From positions 1 through 49,969 of the forward strand of contig JAEFAM010000009.1 of NCBI GenBank assembly GCA_016287565.1: a DNA stretch of 49,969 nt, read 5' to 3'. The position numbers were made by a program, and so were the translations under genes. Position 1 is the first letter of the stretch, and the number at the start of each line of letters is the position of its first letter. The notes under the pieces were generated by a model. It did no database searches. It was not told the origin of the DNA and worked only from the letters and a program-made list of their open reading frames with translations. The stretch comes from Clostridia bacterium (GTDB lineage Bacteria; Bacillota; Clostridia; UBA1212; UBA1255). Positions 803 to 14,041 of the stretch are shown here, piece after piece.

Positions 803-2809
803 TCAGTCCAGCCTGTTTAGTTTTCTCCCGGAATTGAAAGCTGAAATGTTCTTTGCAACCGCTTCGATGAGCCTTATCCTCGCGGCCTGGGCAGCCCAGC
901 CGATGTGGGGAGTGATGACGGTGTTGGGAGCTTTGAGAAGGGGATTGTCCGGCTTCGGAGGCTCCGTTGACAGCACGTCGAGTCCGGCTCCGGAAAGTTT
1001 GCCGCTCTTTAACGCGTCTGCCACCGCCTGTTCGTCTATAACGCCGCCCCGCGAAGTGTTGATGAGTATGGCTCCGTCCTTCATTATTGACAGCGCTTCT
1101 TCGTCGATATAACAGGCGGTCTTTTCGGTGAGCGGCAGGTGCAGCGTCACGATGTCGGACTTTCTCAGAAGCTCGTTCCTTGACACGAACCTGGCGCCTT
1201 CGGGTAGCTCTTTTTCGCTTCTGGAATGCACCAGCACTTTCATGCCGAACGCCCTGGCGATCTCGCAGACTCTGCTGCCGATGGCTCCGTAGCCTATGAT
1301 GCCCAGAGTCGAACCCGCCAGCTCTTTAATTGGAGAGACGGTAAAGCAGAAATCATCCGAATCGCACCAGTCTCCGTCCTTTACCGCCGCGTCGTGCGCC
1401 GCCGCTTTTTCGCACAATTCAAGTATCAGTGAGAAGGTGAGCTGGGCAACGTCTTCGGTGCTGTATCCGGGAACGTTGGTCAACGCGATCCCTCTCTCTG
1501 AAAGGGCCTCCCGGTCAACTGCGTTTGCCCCCGTGGAGAGCAGCCCCACGTACTTCACGCCGTCGAATTCTTCTATAAGCTCTCTGTCGAGCACGCACTT
1601 GTTCGTGATGACCACTTCCGAGCCCCGAATGCGCCTGAGCACGTCTTTTCTGGCGGTCCTGTCGTAGATATCTGCTCTGCAGATCTTGTAGAGCGGATCC
1701 CAGGATATGTCTCCGGGGTTGGTGGTATGGCCGTCAAGCACCGTGGCTTTCACGGGCGTGTCGAAGGCGAACACCGTGGTGTATTCTTTAGTCTCTCCGG
1801 CTTTGATCACCGGAGAAGGCCATTCGGGATGATTTACGGAATCGGGATAGAACTGGGTCTCGAAACAGATGGCGCATCTGCGGCCGTACACCTGGCCCAC
1901 TTTTCCCTTAAGTCCGTCTTTTACATAATTTGCGGAATACAGCTGGATGCCGGGAAGGTCCGTGGACACGCTCATACGGACGCCCGTGGAGGGGCCGTAG
2001 AGTTCCGCGGCTCTCAGCACCGTACCGTCGCCTTTATAGTCTCTTACAAGGAAGTTGTGGTCGATGCCGCAGCCTGCCTGAAGGTTCGAATCGGTCTCTT
2101 CTTTCTTCAATACGTTGTCCAGCTTGGTCCAGACGCGCATGTCCAGGGCGCCCCTTACGGACTGAAGCGTGCCCAGGGGGATGCACTCGTCGTTTACGGG
2201 GGTGAATCTGTCGGCGTAGAGCTTTATCTCGTTGTCCCCGATGTACGCTCTGGAAGGGCCGTTCATATTGAAGTAGGAGTGGTTGGTGGGATTGAACAGG
2301 CTGTCTTTGTCCACGGCGCAGGAATAAGTTATCGTCAGCTGGTTTTTATCGTCGAAAGCGTATTTTACCTTGACGGTCATGTGGCCCGGATAGCCCTGGT
2401 CCATATGAGGGGAGTCCCAGGCGAGGGTAACGGAATTATCGGTCTCTTCGACGACAGAGGCGATCCTTTCGCTGAAGCTGCCGTCGCCGCCGTGAAGATG
2501 GTTCTCGCCGTTATTCTTTTCCACCGAATAGTTGACGCCGTCCAGCGTGAACCTGCCGCCTGCGATCCTGTTGGCGAACCGCCCCACGAAAGCTCCGTAG
2601 TAGGCGTCCCTGTTCTTGAGATAGGGGGAAAGACGCTCGAATCCGATGACCACGTCGACGAGATTGCCGTTTCTGTCAGGCACGCAAAGGGAACGGATGA
2701 TGCCTCCGTAATCCAGCACGTCCACAAAGGCTCCGGATTTGTTCTTTATCCTGAAGCAGTTGACAGTCTTTCCGTCTTTCGTATAATCGAAAACTTTCTT
2801 GCTGAGCAT
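803..2809 (-). CDS. Fused aldose 1-epimerase (GalM) and D-2-hydroxyacid dehydrogenase
   Basis: A 668-residue protein made of two complete enzymes. Residues 1 to about 350 are a galactose mutarotase: GRFANRIAGGRF, the catalytic-His segments ENHLHGG and FNPTNHSYFN, and the catalytic-Glu segment CFETQFYPDS. From residue 353 (VKATVLDGHT) a D-2-hydroxyacid dehydrogenase of the glycerate-dehydrogenase type begins, with Rossmann motif GIIGYGAIGSRV and the catalytic Arg, Glu and His in INTSRGGVIDE, LSTEPP and TPHIGW. There is essentially no linker, and the second half begins at a GTG codon (1753) where a free-standing dehydrogenase would start, without a nearby Shine-Dalgarno. Start ATG 2809 has GAGGGTGAT upstream. 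GalM interconverts sugar anomers; the partner reduces or oxidises 2-hydroxy acids. The substrate of the second half is not determined by sequence alone. Confidence 0.9.
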   Translation of the reverse strand: MLSKKVFDYTKDGKTVNCFRIKNKSGAFVDVLDYGGIIRSLCVPDRNGNLVDVVIGFERLSPYLKNRDAYYGAFVGRFANRIAGGRFTLDGVNYSVEKNNGENHLHGGDGSFSERIASVVEETDNSVTLAWDSPHMDQGYPGHMTVKVKYAFDDKNQLTITYSCAVDKDSLFNPTNHSYFNMNGPSRAYIGDNEIKLYADRFTPVNDECIPLGTLQSVRGALDMRVWTKLDNVLKKEETDSNLQAGCGIDHNFLVRDYKGDGTVLRAAELYGPSTGVRMSVSTDLPGIQLYSANYVKDGLKGKVGQVYGRRCAICFETQFYPDSVNHPEWPSPVIKAGETKEYTTVFAFDTPVKATVLDGHTTNPGDISWDPLYKICRADIYDRTARKDVLRRIRGSEVVITNKCVLDRELIEEFDGVKYVGLLSTGANAVDREALSERGIALTNVPGYSTEDVAQLTFSLILELCEKAAAHDAAVKDGDWCDSDDFCFTVSPIKELAGSTLGIIGYGAIGSRVCEIARAFGMKVLVHSRSEKELPEGARFVSRNELLRKSDIVTLHLPLTEKTACYIDEEALSIMKDGAILINTSRGGVIDEQAVADALKSGKLSGAGLDVLSTEPPKPDNPLLKAPNTVITPHIGWAAQAARIRLIEAVAKNISAFNSGRKLNRLD

Positions 2810-3080: not shown

Positions 3081-4868
3081 ATGAAAGCGATCTACAACGA
3101 CGGCCACGTCGGAGAATTACAGGATGCGGCCGAGGAACTGCACGTTCTTCGCCACAGCGCCGCGCACATAATGGCTCAGGCCATAAAGCGCCTTTATCCC
3201 AACGCGGATTTCGCGTACGGCCCCGCCAATGAAAAGGGTTTCTATTATGACGTGGATTTCGGCGATACCAAGATATCCGACGACGATCTTCCCAGGATCG
3301 AAGAAGAGATGCGGCGCATCATCAAAGAGAACCTGCCCATCAAGCCCTTCGTGCTTCCCAGGAACGAAGCCATAGCGCTTATGGAACAGCGGGGAGAAAA
3401 GTATAAAGTTGAGCATATCGGAGACCTGCCCGAGGACGCGGTCATCAGCTTCTACCAGCAGGGCGAATATATCGATATGTGCGTGGGACCCCATCTCACT
3501 TACACCAAAGGCCTCAAGGCTTTCAAACTGCTTGGGCTCTCCGGCGCGTACTGGAAGAATGACAGCAACAACACCATGCTTACCCGCATAAAGGGCACCG
3601 CTTTCAAGACCAATGAAGAACTGGAAGCCTATATGGTGGAACTCAGGGAAGCGGAGCTTCGCGACCACCGCAGGATCGGCAGGGAAATGAGTCTGTTCAT
3701 GACCGACGACCTGGTAGGAAAAGGCCTGCCCATGTTCCTTCCTAAAGGCTATACCGTATGGCAGGAACTGGAAAAATACATCAAGGAAAAAGAGCGGGCG
3801 CTGGGATACCAGCACGTCATGACGCCCTGCGTCGGTACCGTGGATCTCTACCGCACCAGCGGTCACTGGGACCATTACAAGAACAACATGTTCCCGGCAA
3901 TGGAAGTTGAAGGGGAGAGCTTCGTGCTCCGTCCCATGAACTGCCCTCACCATATGATGATCTACGCCAACCGCGCCCATTCGTACCGCGACCTTCCCAT
4001 AAGGATAGGCGAGATCGCCCACGACTTCAGATTCGAAGCCAGCGGAACGCTTAAGGGCATCGAGCGCGGCCGCCATTTCTGCCAGAACGACGCCCACCTG
4101 TTCGTGACGCCGGAGCAGATAAAGGACGAAGTGGGAAAAGTGGTAGACCTGATCTTCGACGTCTATAAAGATTTCGGCATCACCAACTACCGCTGCGTGC
4201 TTTCTTTAAGAGATCCCGAGGACAAGGTCAAATACCATCAGGACGACGAGATGTGGAACAAGGCCGAATCGGCGCTCCGCGAAGTACTGGTGGGACTGGG
4301 CATCGAATTTACGGAAGAGATCGGCGAAGCCGCGTTCTACGGGCCCAAGCTGGACGTCAACGTAAAGCCTGCCATCGGAGCTGAGATCACGCTTTCCACC
4401 TGCCAGCTGGACTTCTGTCTGCCTGCCAAATTCGACCTCAAATACACCGATAAAGACGGCGAGAAGAAGACGCCCGTCGTGCTCCACAGAGCCATCCTCG
4501 GATCCATCGACCGCTTCATGGCGTACATCATTGAGGAGACCAAGGGCAAGTTCCCGGTCTGGCTGGCTCCCGTGCAGGTCAAAGTATTGAGAGTTTCCGA
4601 GAGATTCTCCGATTACAGCGAGATGGTGTACGACAAGCTCGTCGCCGCCGGTGTCAGAGCGGAACTTGACGACCGCAACGAGAAGATCGGCTACATGATC
4701 AGAGAAGCTCAGGTAGTCGACAGAGTGCCTTATATGGTCATCATAGGCCAGAAGGAAGTTGACGACGGCAATATCTCCATCCGTCTCAGGGACAACACGG
4801 AGACCGTTACAATGGGTATCGACGAGTTCATCGAAAAGGTGACTGGGGAGATCAAAAACCGCAAATAA
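3081..4868 (+). CDS. thrS: Threonyl-tRNA synthetase lacking the TGS domain
   Basis: Charges tRNA-Thr with threonine in the cytoplasm. The 595 residues begin close to the editing domain: the zinc-binding HSAAH of that domain is already at residues 25-29, so the roughly 60-residue N-terminal TGS domain of most bacterial ThrRS is absent. Class II motifs follow: FRFEASGTLKGIERGRHF (motif 2, with A in place of the usual D, and GRHF instead of VRGF). The catalytic zinc ligands lie in MNCPHH, NDAHLF and LHRAILGS. The C-terminal anticodon-binding domain (APVQVKVLRVSE onward) is complete. ATG 3081 has AAGAGGA 7 bases upstream. It converges on the CARF nuclease gene with only 14 bases between stops. 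Confidence 0.95.
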   Translation: MKAIYNDGHVGELQDAAEELHVLRHSAAHIMAQAIKRLYPNADFAYGPANEKGFYYDVDFGDTKISDDDLPRIEEEMRRIIKENLPIKPFVLPRNEAIALMEQRGEKYKVEHIGDLPEDAVISFYQQGEYIDMCVGPHLTYTKGLKAFKLLGLSGAYWKNDSNNTMLTRIKGTAFKTNEELEAYMVELREAELRDHRRIGREMSLFMTDDLVGKGLPMFLPKGYTVWQELEKYIKEKERALGYQHVMTPCVGTVDLYRTSGHWDHYKNNMFPAMEVEGESFVLRPMNCPHHMMIYANRAHSYRDLPIRIGEIAHDFRFEASGTLKGIERGRHFCQNDAHLFVTPEQIKDEVGKVVDLIFDVYKDFGITNYRCVLSLRDPEDKVKYHQDDEMWNKAESALREVLVGLGIEFTEEIGEAAFYGPKLDVNVKPAIGAEITLSTCQLDFCLPAKFDLKYTDKDGEKKTPVVLHRAILGSIDRFMAYIIEETKGKFPVWLAPVQVKVLRVSERFSDYSEMVYDKLVAAGVRAELDDRNEKIGYMIREAQVVDRVPYMVIIGQKEVDDGNISIRLRDNTETVTMGIDEFIEKVTGEIKNRK

Positions 4869-4882
4869 AAAACAGACAGATA

Positions 4883-6154
4883 TCAGTCGTGAAGTTCGTC
4901 GATGAACTTCCTGACCGTTCTGGCAATAGCGTTTCTGAATTCTTTCAGAGAAAGAGACTGCACGTCATCGATAAGCATGATGTGCATTTCTTTTGCCCTT
5001 TCTTTGACGGGCTGGAAGGCGGTCTTGGATGATACCAGCATCGCCAGGGCGTATTTTCCGCCGAAATGCTCCGCCATGGTCTTGATCTCGTAAAGATATT
5101 CTTTCGTGGGCTCCGTGTTTTTGCAACTCACGAACACGGGAACGTATCCGTACATCATGGTGACGTCCAGCTCGTTGGTGGGATCGGAGCCCTGTTTCGA
5201 TATCACGCCGTTGACGTCAAGCAAGACCTTGGTGTAGCATTCTCTGAACATGCCGGTGCCGGAAGCCGCCAGGGCGGTGTACATCTCCAGCGCGGTGCCC
5301 GAAGAGACGTACAGCTCCTCGGTCACGGCAGAATCCCTGAGTCGGTATTTAAGCGTGTTGTCGTCCATGGAGTAGTCGCTGACTATGCCGCGCTTTTTAA
5401 GCCTTGACATTATGCGTTCGGCGGTGACCTTTTCGCCGGACTTGGAGAATCTCCGGGAGATATAGCCTTCCTCGTCTTTCTCGATGCCGTTGACGTAGGA
5501 AATGGAGCAGAAGCGGTTCCAGTCCGCGGCCAGGTCTTTCAAGGCGTTCCAGACTCTCAATATCTCGTACCGTTTCCGGTCCATGATGCCGCTGAACTCT
5601 TCGGGCCAGGTGCCTATGACCAGGCCTCCGTAGAGGCGGATGATGTCGGAAAAAGAGAAGAGCACGCCGCCGTTGTTGACCTCGCCGGCTTCATTCTCTT
5701 TATTGTCCCCGGAACCTTTTTTGGAACTCATGGCCAGGGAGACGGAACCGGCGATCACGTCCGAAACGTGTGCGGAAAAAGCGTTGCCCTGATATCCGGA
5801 CAAAAACATGCCGAGCGCCGCGATGAATATCTCGTCTCCGCCCGTAAGGTCAACGTCGAACACGGATTCCGGGAACTTTTCCGGCAGCCCCGACAGCGCC
5901 TTCACCGCCGCGTCAATGCTTTTCTCCTCCGCCTCTTCGAAAACCAATTCGATACCGGTCCTGCCGGAGATGACAGAGCTCATAACGCGCCTTTTCGCGG
6001 GATCCGGATCCGAATCTTTAAAGCATAAAAATACCAGCTTATCGTACCTGCCTATCTCGAGAGATACGATATTCTCCAGCGCGTCGTTGTCGTATAATTC
6101 AACCAGTATCCTGTTCATCCCGACCGGCTTATCCTGCTTTCCCGAAGGCCGCAC
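4883..6154 (-). CDS. DUF1887 family CARF-domain nuclease (Card1/Can2-like), orphan
   Basis: A 423-residue protein with the layout of the DUF1887 / Card1 family, whose known members are nucleases switched on by cyclic oligoadenylate from type III CRISPR systems. Residues about 13-150 form a CARF-like Rossmann domain with the ligand-loop motif DLTGGDE (102-108). A winged-helix segment follows at about 210-280 (AERIMSRLKKRGIVSDY). The C-terminal PD-(D/E)XK fold has GTALEMY (286-292) and the metal/catalytic residues of ELD (328-330) and SCK (343-345). No cas gene or repeat array is visible in the window, so the activator is unknown. Start: GTG 6154 has GGAG 8 bases upstream; the internal ATG at 6118 is where the CARF domain proper begins and is an alternative. 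Family assignment is from motifs; catalytic activity is inferred. Confidence 0.85.
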   Translation of the reverse strand: MRPSGKQDKPVGMNRILVELYDNDALENIVSLEIGRYDKLVFLCFKDSDPDPAKRRVMSSVISGRTGIELVFEEAEEKSIDAAVKALSGLPEKFPESVFDVDLTGGDEIFIAALGMFLSGYQGNAFSAHVSDVIAGSVSLAMSSKKGSGDNKENEAGEVNNGGVLFSFSDIIRLYGGLVIGTWPEEFSGIMDRKRYEILRVWNALKDLAADWNRFCSISYVNGIEKDEEGYISRRFSKSGEKVTAERIMSRLKKRGIVSDYSMDDNTLKYRLRDSAVTEELYVSSGTALEMYTALAASGTGMFRECYTKVLLDVNGVISKQGSDPTNELDVTMMYGYVPVFVSCKNTEPTKEYLYEIKTMAEHFGGKYALAMLVSSKTAFQPVKERAKEMHIMLIDDVQSLSLKEFRNAIARTVRKFIDELHD

Positions 6155-6179: not shown

Positions 6180-7220
6180 TCAGTCTATATAGCCTTTTCG
6201 CCTAAACAGCTTTTCGCAAGCTTTGTATATTACGGCGATCACGTATGCCTGCAGCGAGCACACTATGATCTCTTCCGCCAGCCTGGGCAGCCAGTAGACC
6301 ACGAAAGGCGCCTTTATGCCGTAAAGTTCGATCAATATCTTCGAGTTTATAGTGGTGACGACGATGCCCGAAATGAGGATCGAGAACAATATCTTTATGA
6401 AAACGTCATTGTCCTTCTTAAGCGCTTCGGGATCTTTCTTCTTTGCCCTCAGCCTGAGAAGTGTCTTCACGCCCATAAATATCAGTCCGGCGGCGCCTAC
6501 GGCGGCAATGCCGATGCCTGCAAGATTCGCGTTGGTGGCAAAGCTTTTCTGGTACGTCTTGGCGCCTTTGGAGGATGTCAGCATTCCTACGAATTTCGTG
6601 GGCGCTCCCACTTCTCCGGCTTCGATCCTTGTCGTCATATTGTCTTTTTCCGGAATGTCTTCGGTGTGAGCGATGATGCCGTGGGTGATGCCGTCACGGT
6701 TCAGAGACACGGTGACGCTGAGGCCGAACACCAGGAAGAAGCACATGATGCCTAAAAAGATCCATCTGGCGGCTTTCGCCAGGCCCCTGCCGGACTTTTT
6801 GAAAAGCAGCCAAAGCAGGCCTTTCAGGAAGCCTCCCACGAAGCCCATCAGCGTGAACAGGAAATTGTAGTCCCCCGTGGGTTTCATAAAGAAGCCCAGC
6901 AGGTCCGTGAGCGCGGAAGTGATGCCTCCGTAAAGGGGTCCGAAGAGGATGGCGGGGAAGGCGGTGAATATGCCCGCGAACCCGAACCTGAGGCCGTTGG
7001 AGCCCATGAGAGGCAGTTCGATGGAAAAGTATTTGAGCGCCAGCGCGAAAGCGAGCATCATGGCGGTGATGCTCATTTTTTCGGTGCGTTTTCTTGCGTC
7101 CTGCTTAAGCTCGGCTTTGTTGGCGCCGGGACTTTTGAGCATCATCCTGTATTGCATGATGAGATTGATCAGGATGCAAAGCAACAGAGAATCGATAACG
7201 ACGACTATAAGGACTACCAT
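6180..7220 (-). CDS. folT: FolT-like ECF transporter S component (folate) with a large insertion
   Basis: Probable substrate-binding membrane subunit of an energy-coupling-factor transporter for folate. The core (residues about 50-150) has the S-component pattern LRFGFAGIFTAFPAILFGPL followed by GGITSALTDLLGFF, and helices resume near 270-340. FolT proteins are usually about 170-200 residues; this one has 346. It carries an extra N-terminal membrane helix (2-24) with a basic linker, and an inserted stretch (about 172-268) containing a polar, probably extracytoplasmic segment and another hydrophobic helix. The folate assignment rests mainly on the tetrahydrofolate riboswitch directly upstream. 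No ECF ATPase or T-component genes are in the window, consistent with a shared energising module elsewhere. Start ATG 7220 has GGGGAGA upstream. Confidence 0.82.
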   Translation of the reverse strand: MVVLIVVVIDSLLLCILINLIMQYRMMLKSPGANKAELKQDARKRTEKMSITAMMLAFALALKYFSIELPLMGSNGLRFGFAGIFTAFPAILFGPLYGGITSALTDLLGFFMKPTGDYNFLFTLMGFVGGFLKGLLWLLFKKSGRGLAKAARWIFLGIMCFFLVFGLSVTVSLNRDGITHGIIAHTEDIPEKDNMTTRIEAGEVGAPTKFVGMLTSSKGAKTYQKSFATNANLAGIGIAAVGAAGLIFMGVKTLLRLRAKKKDPEALKKDNDVFIKILFSILISGIVVTTINSKILIELYGIKAPFVVYWLPRLAEEIIVCSLQAYVIAVIYKACEKLFRRKGYID

Positions 7221-9548: not shown

Positions 9549-11429
9549 GTGGGATCCGATAAAAAAAAGAAAGAAAATAAACTGCTGCGGTTTTTCGGAT
9601 TCGGCGTACGCGACGACGGAGAAGAGGGAACATCCCCTCCGGAAGCCGCGAGCGTCAACGCTTATTCTGACCAGGATCCGGAAGACAGCCGCTTCGACAG
9701 CGACTGGAAGCCTTTCGTTGACTTTTCCGACGAGGAGGTTGTGTTTGATGACAATGACGAAACGGAATTCTTTGAGGAAGAGGGGCCGCTCCTTAGTGTC
9801 CCGGAAGATAAAGAAGCCGATAATAAAATCGATGAAGAAAAAGATACGCCGGAACAGTATGCTGAGCACGGCGAAGACGCTGATAGTCTCGGTGAGAGCC
9901 AGGCACTCCACGACGGTGGCGGCGAACAAGCTGAGGAAGGACCTGAAGAAACTCAAGGAGACGGACTTCTCGAATATAGTGGTGACTCCGGAGATGGTGG
10001 AACAGAGGAAAGCTTTGGCCGCGGAGGAAGCGGAAACGCTGAAGAAGAGCGCGGAAGCGCCGGAGACGGAAACTCCGAAGAAGAGTCCGGAAACGGAGAA
10101 GCCGGAGAAAGACCTGAAACGGAAGAGGCGGAGACCGTCGCTTTCGAAAGGGGAGAAGACGAAGTCGGCGAAAGGATAAGCGACCTGGAAAAACTCTTCG
10201 GAGAACTCGAAATAGACGACGGCGTCGCGGACGAGGCGGCGGAAGCCGAAAAAGCCGTTCCTGAAGACGAAGATGACGACGGAGAGGACAGCGCGGATTT
10301 CGGCGGAGAAGAGATCGACGTCAGCGGCGGAGAAAGCTTGTCCTGGAACAGGAAGAGCTTGAGGATCGCGGCGGAAAAGACCGGAGCCAGGATCGTTGTC
10401 GACGACGACGTGATGACGGCTGTCACGGCCGGGTATATTGACCGGAACAAATTTAACGAAGAAAAGCAGAAAATTGCCGCGGCCAACGAGGCCGGTGAAG
10501 ATATATCGCTGCTCATAAAAGAAGCGGAGAAAAAAGCCTCTCCTGCGGCAGTCCCTGACGAATCCGCGGTCAGGATCTCCGACAACGCTTTTAGAAAGAT
10601 ACTTGACACGCTTGGCGACGAGGACGCGGAAGTCAACGCCCTGACGTCGGACGATACCGGCGATGGCAACGTACCCGCGGAGCGCGGCGCTGAAACGCCT
10701 GAAGGAGAGGCTTCTTCCGGCGGCAGCGGCCTGACCGACGGCGAAAACGCCGAGGAGCCCGAGAGGGACGAAGAACTTCTGGACTACGACGACGTATTCC
10801 AGGACGATCCCGGCGTCACCAGGAAAAAGACCAGAAAAAAGAAGATACTCGCAGTCGTAAAAGAGGCCGTCAAGAGCGTCCTCCTGTTCCTGGGCGTGTT
10901 TATCGTATTCATCTTCTGCTACCTGACTTTCACGGTATATTGCGTCCGCAACAATCACGTTATAGGATCGTCGATGGAACCCACGCTCCACAACGGAGAC
11001 GAAGTCCGTTCCTCCCTGATGCCCTACGTTTTCGGCAAGCCCAAAGTAGGAGACATCGTTATCGTGGACACCGACCGCATAGGGAAGGGCTTCAGCTTCT
11101 TCGAAAGGATCGGAGACGTACTCAGAAGCAACGAGGGCCTATCCAAGATGTTCTTTAAAGGGCAGGAGGAAGACGTGCTGTGGATCAAGCGCGTGGTGGC
11201 CGTAGGCGGAGACGTAGTGGAGTTCAGAGACGGTCAATTCTACCGCAACGGAGAGCTCGTGACCGAAGATTATATCTACGACCAGACCGTGGTCACGTAC
11301 CCCAACGGCGAGAAGATCGAAGTGCCTGAAGGCTACGTGTTCGTAATGGGTGACAACCGCAACGTGAGCCAGGACAGCAGGGAGATCGGCGTCGTACCGA
11401 TCTACGCGCTTACCGGAAGAAAAATGTGA
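9549..11429 (+). CDS. lepB: Signal peptidase I with a long acidic N-terminal extension
   Basis: A 626-residue protein. Only the last ~190 residues are the type I signal peptidase that cuts secretory signal peptides at the outer membrane face. One transmembrane helix lies at about 437-462, preceded by RKKTRKKK. Then come SSMEPT with nucleophile Ser475, WIKRVVAVGGD with general base Lys547, and MGDNRNVSQDSRE (the box E signature). The preceding ~430 residues are cytoplasmic by topology, low-complexity, rich in Glu, Asp and Gly, and without a recognisable fold apart from a more ordered patch (about 270-360). Typical Gram-positive enzymes have 170-200 residues. Start is GTG 9549 with GGAAGG upstream. 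Codon use suggests that positions about 9859-10117 were once read in the +1 frame (see findings). Confidence 0.88.
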   Translation: MGSDKKKKENKLLRFFGFGVRDDGEEGTSPPEAASVNAYSDQDPEDSRFDSDWKPFVDFSDEEVVFDDNDETEFFEEEGPLLSVPEDKEADNKIDEEKDTPEQYAEHGEDADSLGESQALHDGGGEQAEEGPEETQGDGLLEYSGDSGDGGTEESFGRGGSGNAEEERGSAGDGNSEEESGNGEAGERPETEEAETVAFERGEDEVGERISDLEKLFGELEIDDGVADEAAEAEKAVPEDEDDDGEDSADFGGEEIDVSGGESLSWNRKSLRIAAEKTGARIVVDDDVMTAVTAGYIDRNKFNEEKQKIAAANEAGEDISLLIKEAEKKASPAAVPDESAVRISDNAFRKILDTLGDEDAEVNALTSDDTGDGNVPAERGAETPEGEASSGGSGLTDGENAEEPERDEELLDYDDVFQDDPGVTRKKTRKKKILAVVKEAVKSVLLFLGVFIVFIFCYLTFTVYCVRNNHVIGSSMEPTLHNGDEVRSSLMPYVFGKPKVGDIVIVDTDRIGKGFSFFERIGDVLRSNEGLSKMFFKGQEEDVLWIKRVVAVGGDVVEFRDGQFYRNGELVTEDYIYDQTVVTYPNGEKIEVPEGYVFVMGDNRNVSQDSREIGVVPIYALTGRKM

Positions 11430-13573: not shown

Positions 13574-14041
13574 ATGGATTCCAGACGCAGTTTTACCGAT
13601 ATCGAGTACAGTATGAGAAAACAGACCGGAAAAAGGGAAGAGCTCCTCTTGCGCCTTGACGCGATAATGCCCTGGGAGGAACTGACCGGTTTTATTAAAC
13701 CGTACTATCCCTCGGGAAGGCGCGGCAGGCCCGTGAAGCCCCTCGACGTGATGCTTAAAATGTACCTGCTCCAGCGCTGGTTCGGCCTTTCTGCTGCAGG
13801 CATGGAGAGCCAGGCGTACGACAGTTACGCCTTCAGAAAGTTTATCGGCGTAAGTTTCCTGGAGGAACAGATCCCGGACGCCAACACTCTTTCCAGATTC
13901 AGAAGGCTTCTTAAAAAGAACGGGCTGGAAGAGAAGATAGACGGTACCGTGGACGCGGCCATCACCGAAGCCGGCATCAAACTTACTCCCGGCAGCGTGG
14001 TGGAACCCTTTATAAGGCCTCTGCGCAAGAAAAGCAAATAA
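13574..14041 (+). CDS. Solo N-terminal (DUF772) domain of an IS5-type transposase
   Basis: A 155-residue protein matching only the N-terminal domain of IS5/InsH-like transposases: RRSFTDIEYSMRKQTGKREELL, MPWEELTGFIKPYYP, GRRGRPVKPLDVMLKMYLLQ and DANTLSRFRRLLKKNG. It stops at ITEAGIKLTPGSVVEPFIRPL, where IS5 has GTLVDATII with the first catalytic Asp; here that position reads Glu and the DDE catalytic core is missing. No terminal inverted repeats are evident. The gene has a good ribosome-binding site (GGGAGG, 8 bases before ATG 13574) and an extended -10 promoter, and shows no internal stop. It is either a truncated insertion-sequence remnant or a domesticated DNA-binding/dimerisation domain; the intact expression signals favour the second without proving it. 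Confidence 0.8.
   Translation: MDSRRSFTDIEYSMRKQTGKREELLLRLDAIMPWEELTGFIKPYYPSGRRGRPVKPLDVMLKMYLLQRWFGLSAAGMESQAYDSYAFRKFIGVSFLEEQIPDANTLSRFRRLLKKNGLEEKIDGTVDAAITEAGIKLTPGSVVEPFIRPLRKKSK

Follow-up and report, generated by a model that had tools for sequence, protein, structure and literature searches.

In most work, CARF domains are regarded as sensing the cyclic oligoadenylates of CRISPR systems. The window analysed here, a 49,969 nt stretch of a gut Clostridia draft genome (143 contigs, 2.65 Mb, 95.9 % complete), encodes a CARF nuclease with no CRISPR locus in view, which raises the question of what signal the protein answers to. A sequence-only reading of the window had assigned the gene to DUF1887 as Card1/Can2-like and had offered two options, dependence on a distant type III locus or response to another signal.

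Gene boundaries, family and predicted fold

The open reading frame reported at 4883–6154 on the minus strand was recovered, and the motifs DLTGGDE, GTALEMY, NELD and SCK were all found in its translation. Alignment with congeners placed the start at ATG 6118; the upstream GTG at 6154 is not conserved and is merely the first mechanical start. The gene, its domains and its flanking genes are as follows.

3081–4868, plus strand: thrS, convergent conserved neighbour (NCBIfam TIGR00418; synteny)
4883–6118, minus strand: CARF4/DUF1887 nuclease, 411 aa from the conserved ATG start, stop included (ORF, alignment, profile, fold)
4916–5302, minus strand: PD-(D/E)xK nuclease core, approximately residues 273–401 (profile, fold, alignment, Pfam PF09002)
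5339–5599, minus strand: middle region of helices and a hairpin, winged-helix-like, approximately residues 174–260 (AlphaFold2 secondary structure only)
5681–6118, minus strand: CARF domain, approximately residues 1–146 (AlphaFold2 secondary structure; alignment with Can2, Card1 and VC1899)
6180–7220, minus strand: FolT-family ECF transporter S component (NCBIfam TIGR04518, 69.8 bits; synteny)

The family assignment to DUF1887 was borne out by PADLOC, by a PDB profile and by predicted fold. PADLOC CARF4-PDDEXK matched at E=3e-22, covering residues 15–416 of the longer ORF, and Pfam Card1_endonuc (PF09002) was borderline, at 28.3 bits in one search and 25.7 in another against a cut-off of 26.4. 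A PDB search with the single sequence gave chance-level matches only; a profile built from 21 relatives then resolved full-length matches to Can2 (7e-15), VC1899 (2e-11) and Card1 (6.5e-7). The AlphaFold2 model (pLDDT 88.5, pTM 0.86) matched VC1899 best (Z 29.5, 3.6 Å, 357 residues), followed in order by a Dysgonamonadaceae Can2, Can2 (Z 25.5), Cdn1 (9U49; Z 24.9) and Card1 (Z 22.9). Profile and predicted fold thus agree on a single chain with an N-terminal CARF domain and a C-terminal PD-(D/E)xK nuclease, in the Can2/VC1899 fold. A helix plus hairpin at residues 229–260, seen in the AlphaFold2 secondary structure only, is compatible with the winged helix that had been remarked upon. The best PADLOC library matches were the CARF4--CARF_PDDEXK models PDLC01895 and PDLC01881. 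L227, a member of a sister branch that also carries SCK, matched PDLC01881 at 504 bits. The window protein scored just 77 bits, indicating that these models do not represent its own clade closely. The window protein is a full-length, CRISPR-independent member of the CARF4/DUF1887 fold family.

The founding DUF1887 protein is VC1899 of Vibrio cholerae (PDB 1XMX). It resembles the window protein in having the full-length fold, in being a CRISPR orphan, in carrying Asp at the position of Can2 Ser19 and in lacking the cA4 contacts; it differs from the window clade in having ECK, and Arg at the position of Can2 Lys99, where the clade has SCK and mostly Glu or Asp, and the identity is approximately 14 %. 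VC1899 has been published as a CRISPR orphan in which the cA4 contacts are not conserved, with weak, cA4-independent RNase activity, and was suggested to have been cast adrift from CRISPR (PMC7969007). The sequence-only reading was silent on this published orphan of the same family. As orphan DUF1887 proteins were already known, the novelty here lies in a conserved, re-wired lineage.

Absence of type III components and of SMODS cyclases

No cas genes were seen among the neighbours read around the gene, as had been noted before, and no CRISPR-like repeat array was found within the window; for arrays elsewhere in the genome, the lack of Cas1 serves as a proxy. Genome-wide searches, which covered the window too, were also empty for the Cas10 palm, Cas1 and RAMP. 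The same was true across the genus, where each of the three was detected in 0/7 genomes, although the CARF gene was present in 7/7. The SMODS family of CD-NTases (PF18144), the one cyclase family of this type searched for, was found in 0/7 genomes of the genus and 0/28 genomes overall, so dependence on CBASS SMODS cyclases was not supported. RyR was likewise undetected in the genus. The DAC (c-di-AMP) cyclase domain, used as a positive control, was found in 6/7 genomes, indicating that genus-wide searches work. Rfam and tRNA scans of the window gave no matches. With Cas10, Cas1, RAMP and SMODS undetected in this genome and its six congeners, dependence on a type III locus elsewhere, as had been proposed, gains no support, within the completeness of the assembly.

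We extended the comparison to a class sample of 293 genomes, each at least 90 % complete, in which Cas10 matches were sorted by hand on coverage and score and two were checked by PADLOC. Homologues of the CARF nuclease were patchy, occurring in 39/293 genomes. Cas10 was present in 1/29 genomes with a close relative versus 42/264 others (Fisher p=0.09, a tally that takes no account of shared ancestry), indicating no positive association with Cas10. The sole close-relative genome with Cas10 (G177) carries a Cas10d-type locus on a separate contig. In genome G083, a type III-linked homologue adjoins Cas10d and retains TGGTK. A further CARF4 protein was seen beside Cas10d at L223:677-1933 (plus strand); it keeps TGGTK, and 'FSCTT' replaces the usual ECK, so that this CRISPR-linked member has lost the nuclease Lys.

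The CARF ligand pocket

Alignment with Can2, Card1 and VC1899 placed Glu7, Asp10 and the TGGDE motif (residues 92–96) at the expected CARF pocket. In Can2, cA4 phosphates are contacted by Ser19, Lys99 and Tyr118 and a base by Thr42 (PMC7969007). The corresponding residues in the window protein are Asp10 (Ser19), Phe33 (Thr42), Glu96 (Lys99) and Val118 (Tyr118), as read from a sequence alignment at approximately 15 % identity. These changes extend through the family: among 115 homologues, 91 have Glu or Asp where Can2 has Lys99, 96 have Asp where it has Ser19, and 106 keep Glu7. The sister branch retains Arg or Lys at the Lys99 position. Makarova et al. (2014) read Lys or Arg here as in keeping with binding of a nucleotide, and suggested from its lack in two other families that these recognize different ligands (PMC4012209). 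As judged from the aligned residues, the pocket pattern is a conserved change and not random loss.

The earlier reading had pointed to comparison of the pocket with Card1, and the pocket proved to differ from a Card1-like one, with the cA4-contact residues not kept. Its alternative of another signal is strengthened accordingly, as these positions have been replaced in a conserved way.

The nuclease site

Can2, Card1 and VC1899 read NELD...ECK in the PDB profile alignment. SCK was found in 37 of 38 class homologues recovered by profile, within the pattern NE-x-D...SCK, and the window protein reads likewise; the one that departs from it, with ECK, is a kinase-like/RyR-like/CARF fusion (L185, L234). 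The 80 loci found with a pattern that itself contains SCK provide no independent evidence for it. The core residues of the window protein are Glu278, Glu316, Asp318 and Ser331-Cys-Lys333, of which Glu278, Glu316, Asp318 and Lys333 are invariant in 115/115 sequences. The Mg2+ site of Cdn1, a CARF4 ribonuclease encoded in a type III-B locus, comprises E274, D310, E323 and K325 (PMC12825302); E274, D310 and K325 correspond to E278, D318 and K333, and the metal ligand E323 falls at S331, so its equivalent is missing. A complete ExD...ExK metal site is therefore absent, with E316, D318 and K333 kept and the ExK Glu replaced by S331. Loss of ligand-pocket and catalytic residues, which the earlier reading had named as refuting its inference, counts in part against Card1-like behaviour: the pocket differs and one of four metal-site residues has changed from Glu to Ser, while the four invariant residues stand.

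Replacement of the ExK Glu could leave the enzyme with little catalytic activity, or none. Cfr10I and NgoMIV are restriction enzymes whose PD-(D/E)xK sites lack the ExK acid and draw a carboxylate from another position ('PD-XXK-E'; PMC551604); they are related to the window protein by fold class alone and serve as precedent for a moved carboxylate only. Asp301 is conserved in 102/109 main-branch sequences and missing from the sister branch that also bears SCK, which makes it a candidate only. An acidic residue at 340/341 is a second candidate replacement carboxylate.

Taken with Can2 (7BDV) and Card1 (6WXW-Y), the window protein shares the domain order, the NE-x-D motif, the helix Glu and the nuclease Lys. 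Can2 and Card1 are activated by cA4 and have ExK, whereas the window protein has SxK and altered contacts and belongs to a genus without detected Cas10. It is Can2-type in architecture and lacks the Cas10, the cA4 contacts and the complete metal site of a Card1/Can2 type III effector. Since the ExK Glu is replaced by Ser and the phosphate-binding Lys and Ser by acidic residues, both family-wide, control by cA4 is unlikely.

Conservation, selection and genomic context

The gene is single-copy and intact in 7/7 genomes of the genus. Values of dN/dS were 0.05–0.14, consistent with purifying selection, and are rough since dS was high in most pairs; together with the conserved changes described above, they argue against decay. 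Across the genus, the gene is flanked by thrS and by the FolT-family ECF gene; in the window, the latter shares the strand of the CARF gene and lies 61 bp upstream of it. In some species a further gene separates the CARF gene from thrS, and one contig stops short of the ECF gene. In the tree, the genus and Erysipelotrichia-like genomes together form the closest branch (14 rows, SH-aLRT 100); in the latter genomes, the homologue occupies a different housekeeping locus, beside genes reading as upp and ATP synthase. Carriage by phages or plasmids found no support, since scans of viral contigs and of phage and plasmid collections returned no relative.

Distant relatives and the AAA+/RyR/YbjN gene set

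Among 74 distant gut Clostridia loci, 17 contained, within 6 kb, a gene for a protein of approximately 1150 aa with Clp-like AAA, FtsH-like AAA and M41 peptidase parts, usually 100–250 bp from the CARF gene and on the same strand. Seventeen of the 74 loci carried a member of a membrane protein family that has TrkA_N/RyR-like parts, nine a RyR protein and nine a YbjN protein. At least five changes of the AAA label are needed on the starred branches, indicating that its association with CARF nucleases recurs. Examples of the AAA+ gene beside CARF nuclease, RyR-domain and YbjN genes are L144:11353-15027, L117:11275-14814 and L132:11538-15062. The AAA+/RyR/YbjN/CARF set is possibly an uncharacterised stress or defence cluster of gut Clostridia, and the neighbourhoods of these distant relatives suggest a stress or defence role. 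The link was not adopted for the window gene itself, as other branches carry the set and RyR was undetected in its genus.

Two large fusions were also observed, each comprising a kinase-like domain, a RyR-like region and a CARF-PD-(D/E)xK nuclease: L233:11018-15139 (minus strand, approximately 1370 aa) with SCK, and L234:6674-11173 (plus strand, approximately 1500 aa) with ECK. Pfam supports the kinase in L233 only; the other kinase and the RyR-like parts were read from sequence. The sister branch of SCK nucleases (L227:8841-9968 and relatives L178–L183) mostly carries Arg or Lys at the phosphate position and matches PADLOC PDLC01881; Cas10 was found on another contig in 2/7 of its sampled genomes.

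Proposed function and alternative explanations

Our favoured explanation, which we consider fairly probable, is that the gene encodes a chromosomal, vertically inherited, CRISPR-independent CARF-PD-(D/E)xK nuclease answering to a ligand other than cA4. The protein is probably a homodimer like Can2, in which a ligand bound between the two CARF domains would open or assemble the nuclease sites. The ligand may be another cellular or infection-linked small molecule in place of phosphate-bound cA4, as conserved acidic residues occupy two of the phosphate-binding positions of the pocket. Glu278, Glu316, Asp318 and Lys333 are the predicted catalytic residues, with Ser331 where Card1, Can2 and Cdn1 have a metal-binding Glu, and another carboxylate (candidates Asp301 and Glu340) may stand in for it as in 'PD-XXK-E' enzymes. 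The likely role would be self-limiting cleavage of nucleic acids in cells that are stressed or attacked by phage. The setting among housekeeping genes, in a genus without detectable RyR, is also compatible with a non-defence role.

Such a role is central to the alternative of an ordinary nuclease of DNA or RNA metabolism (repair, recombination or RNA turnover) whose CARF domain dimerizes or senses a housekeeping nucleotide. Carriage in every genome of the genus, conserved synteny with thrS and the ECF gene, a second housekeeping locus in the Erysipelotrichia-like branch, absence from the phage, plasmid and viral collections and the presence of a c-di-AMP cyclase domain are all in keeping with it. 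We nevertheless think it unlikely, given the patchy distribution in the class and the recurrent placement of other branches beside AAA+/M41, RyR and YbjN genes or in kinase-like fusions, which is atypical of housekeeping enzymes. The gene could instead be what is left of a type III effector that has degenerated, adrift from CRISPR and with no present function, as suggested for VC1899; the weak cA4-independent RNase activity of that protein and the shared lack of cA4 contacts fit this idea, as does the missing ExK Glu of the window protein. Low dN/dS, an intact ORF throughout the genus, invariant catalytic residues and a different yet conserved pocket over 115 diverse homologues make it improbable. 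Least credible, and in our view very improbable, is a genuine cA4 effector that relies on Cas10 acting in trans, from a mobile element or from a locus missing from the draft. The fragmented, incomplete assembly and the Cas10 locus on another contig in G177 leave some room for it, but the genus-wide lack of Cas10, RAMP and Cas1, the absence of a positive association with Cas10 in the class and the acidic replacements at phosphate-binding positions all count against it.

Beyond the favoured CRISPR-independent nuclease, we tentatively propose that the whole lineage may have switched to a non-cyclic-oligoadenylate ligand and a re-wired SxK site, forming a CRISPR-free signalling effector that is a core gene in this genus and part of an AAA+ protease/RyR/YbjN set in other gut Clostridia. 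A genome that encodes a CARF nuclease need not carry a type III CRISPR system. A conserved lineage that keeps the fold but replaces phosphate-binding residues and one metal ligand, in organisms without Cas10, also opens to direct test the question of which other ligands CARF domains sense, and its many natural homologues allow comparison.

Other genes in the window

Some other ORFs in the window drew attention. The 668-aa ORF at 803–2809 (minus strand) looks like a fusion of an aldose 1-epimerase with a D-2-hydroxyacid (phosphoglycerate-type) dehydrogenase, domain identities that come from reading the sequence, and its cluster is kept at similar length in the genus. At 9549–11429 (plus strand), a 626-aa ORF begins with a long acidic region, and its C-terminus resembles signal peptidase I. 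A 155-aa ORF at 13574–14041 (plus strand) is like the N-terminal part of an IS5-type transposase and is probably a remnant.
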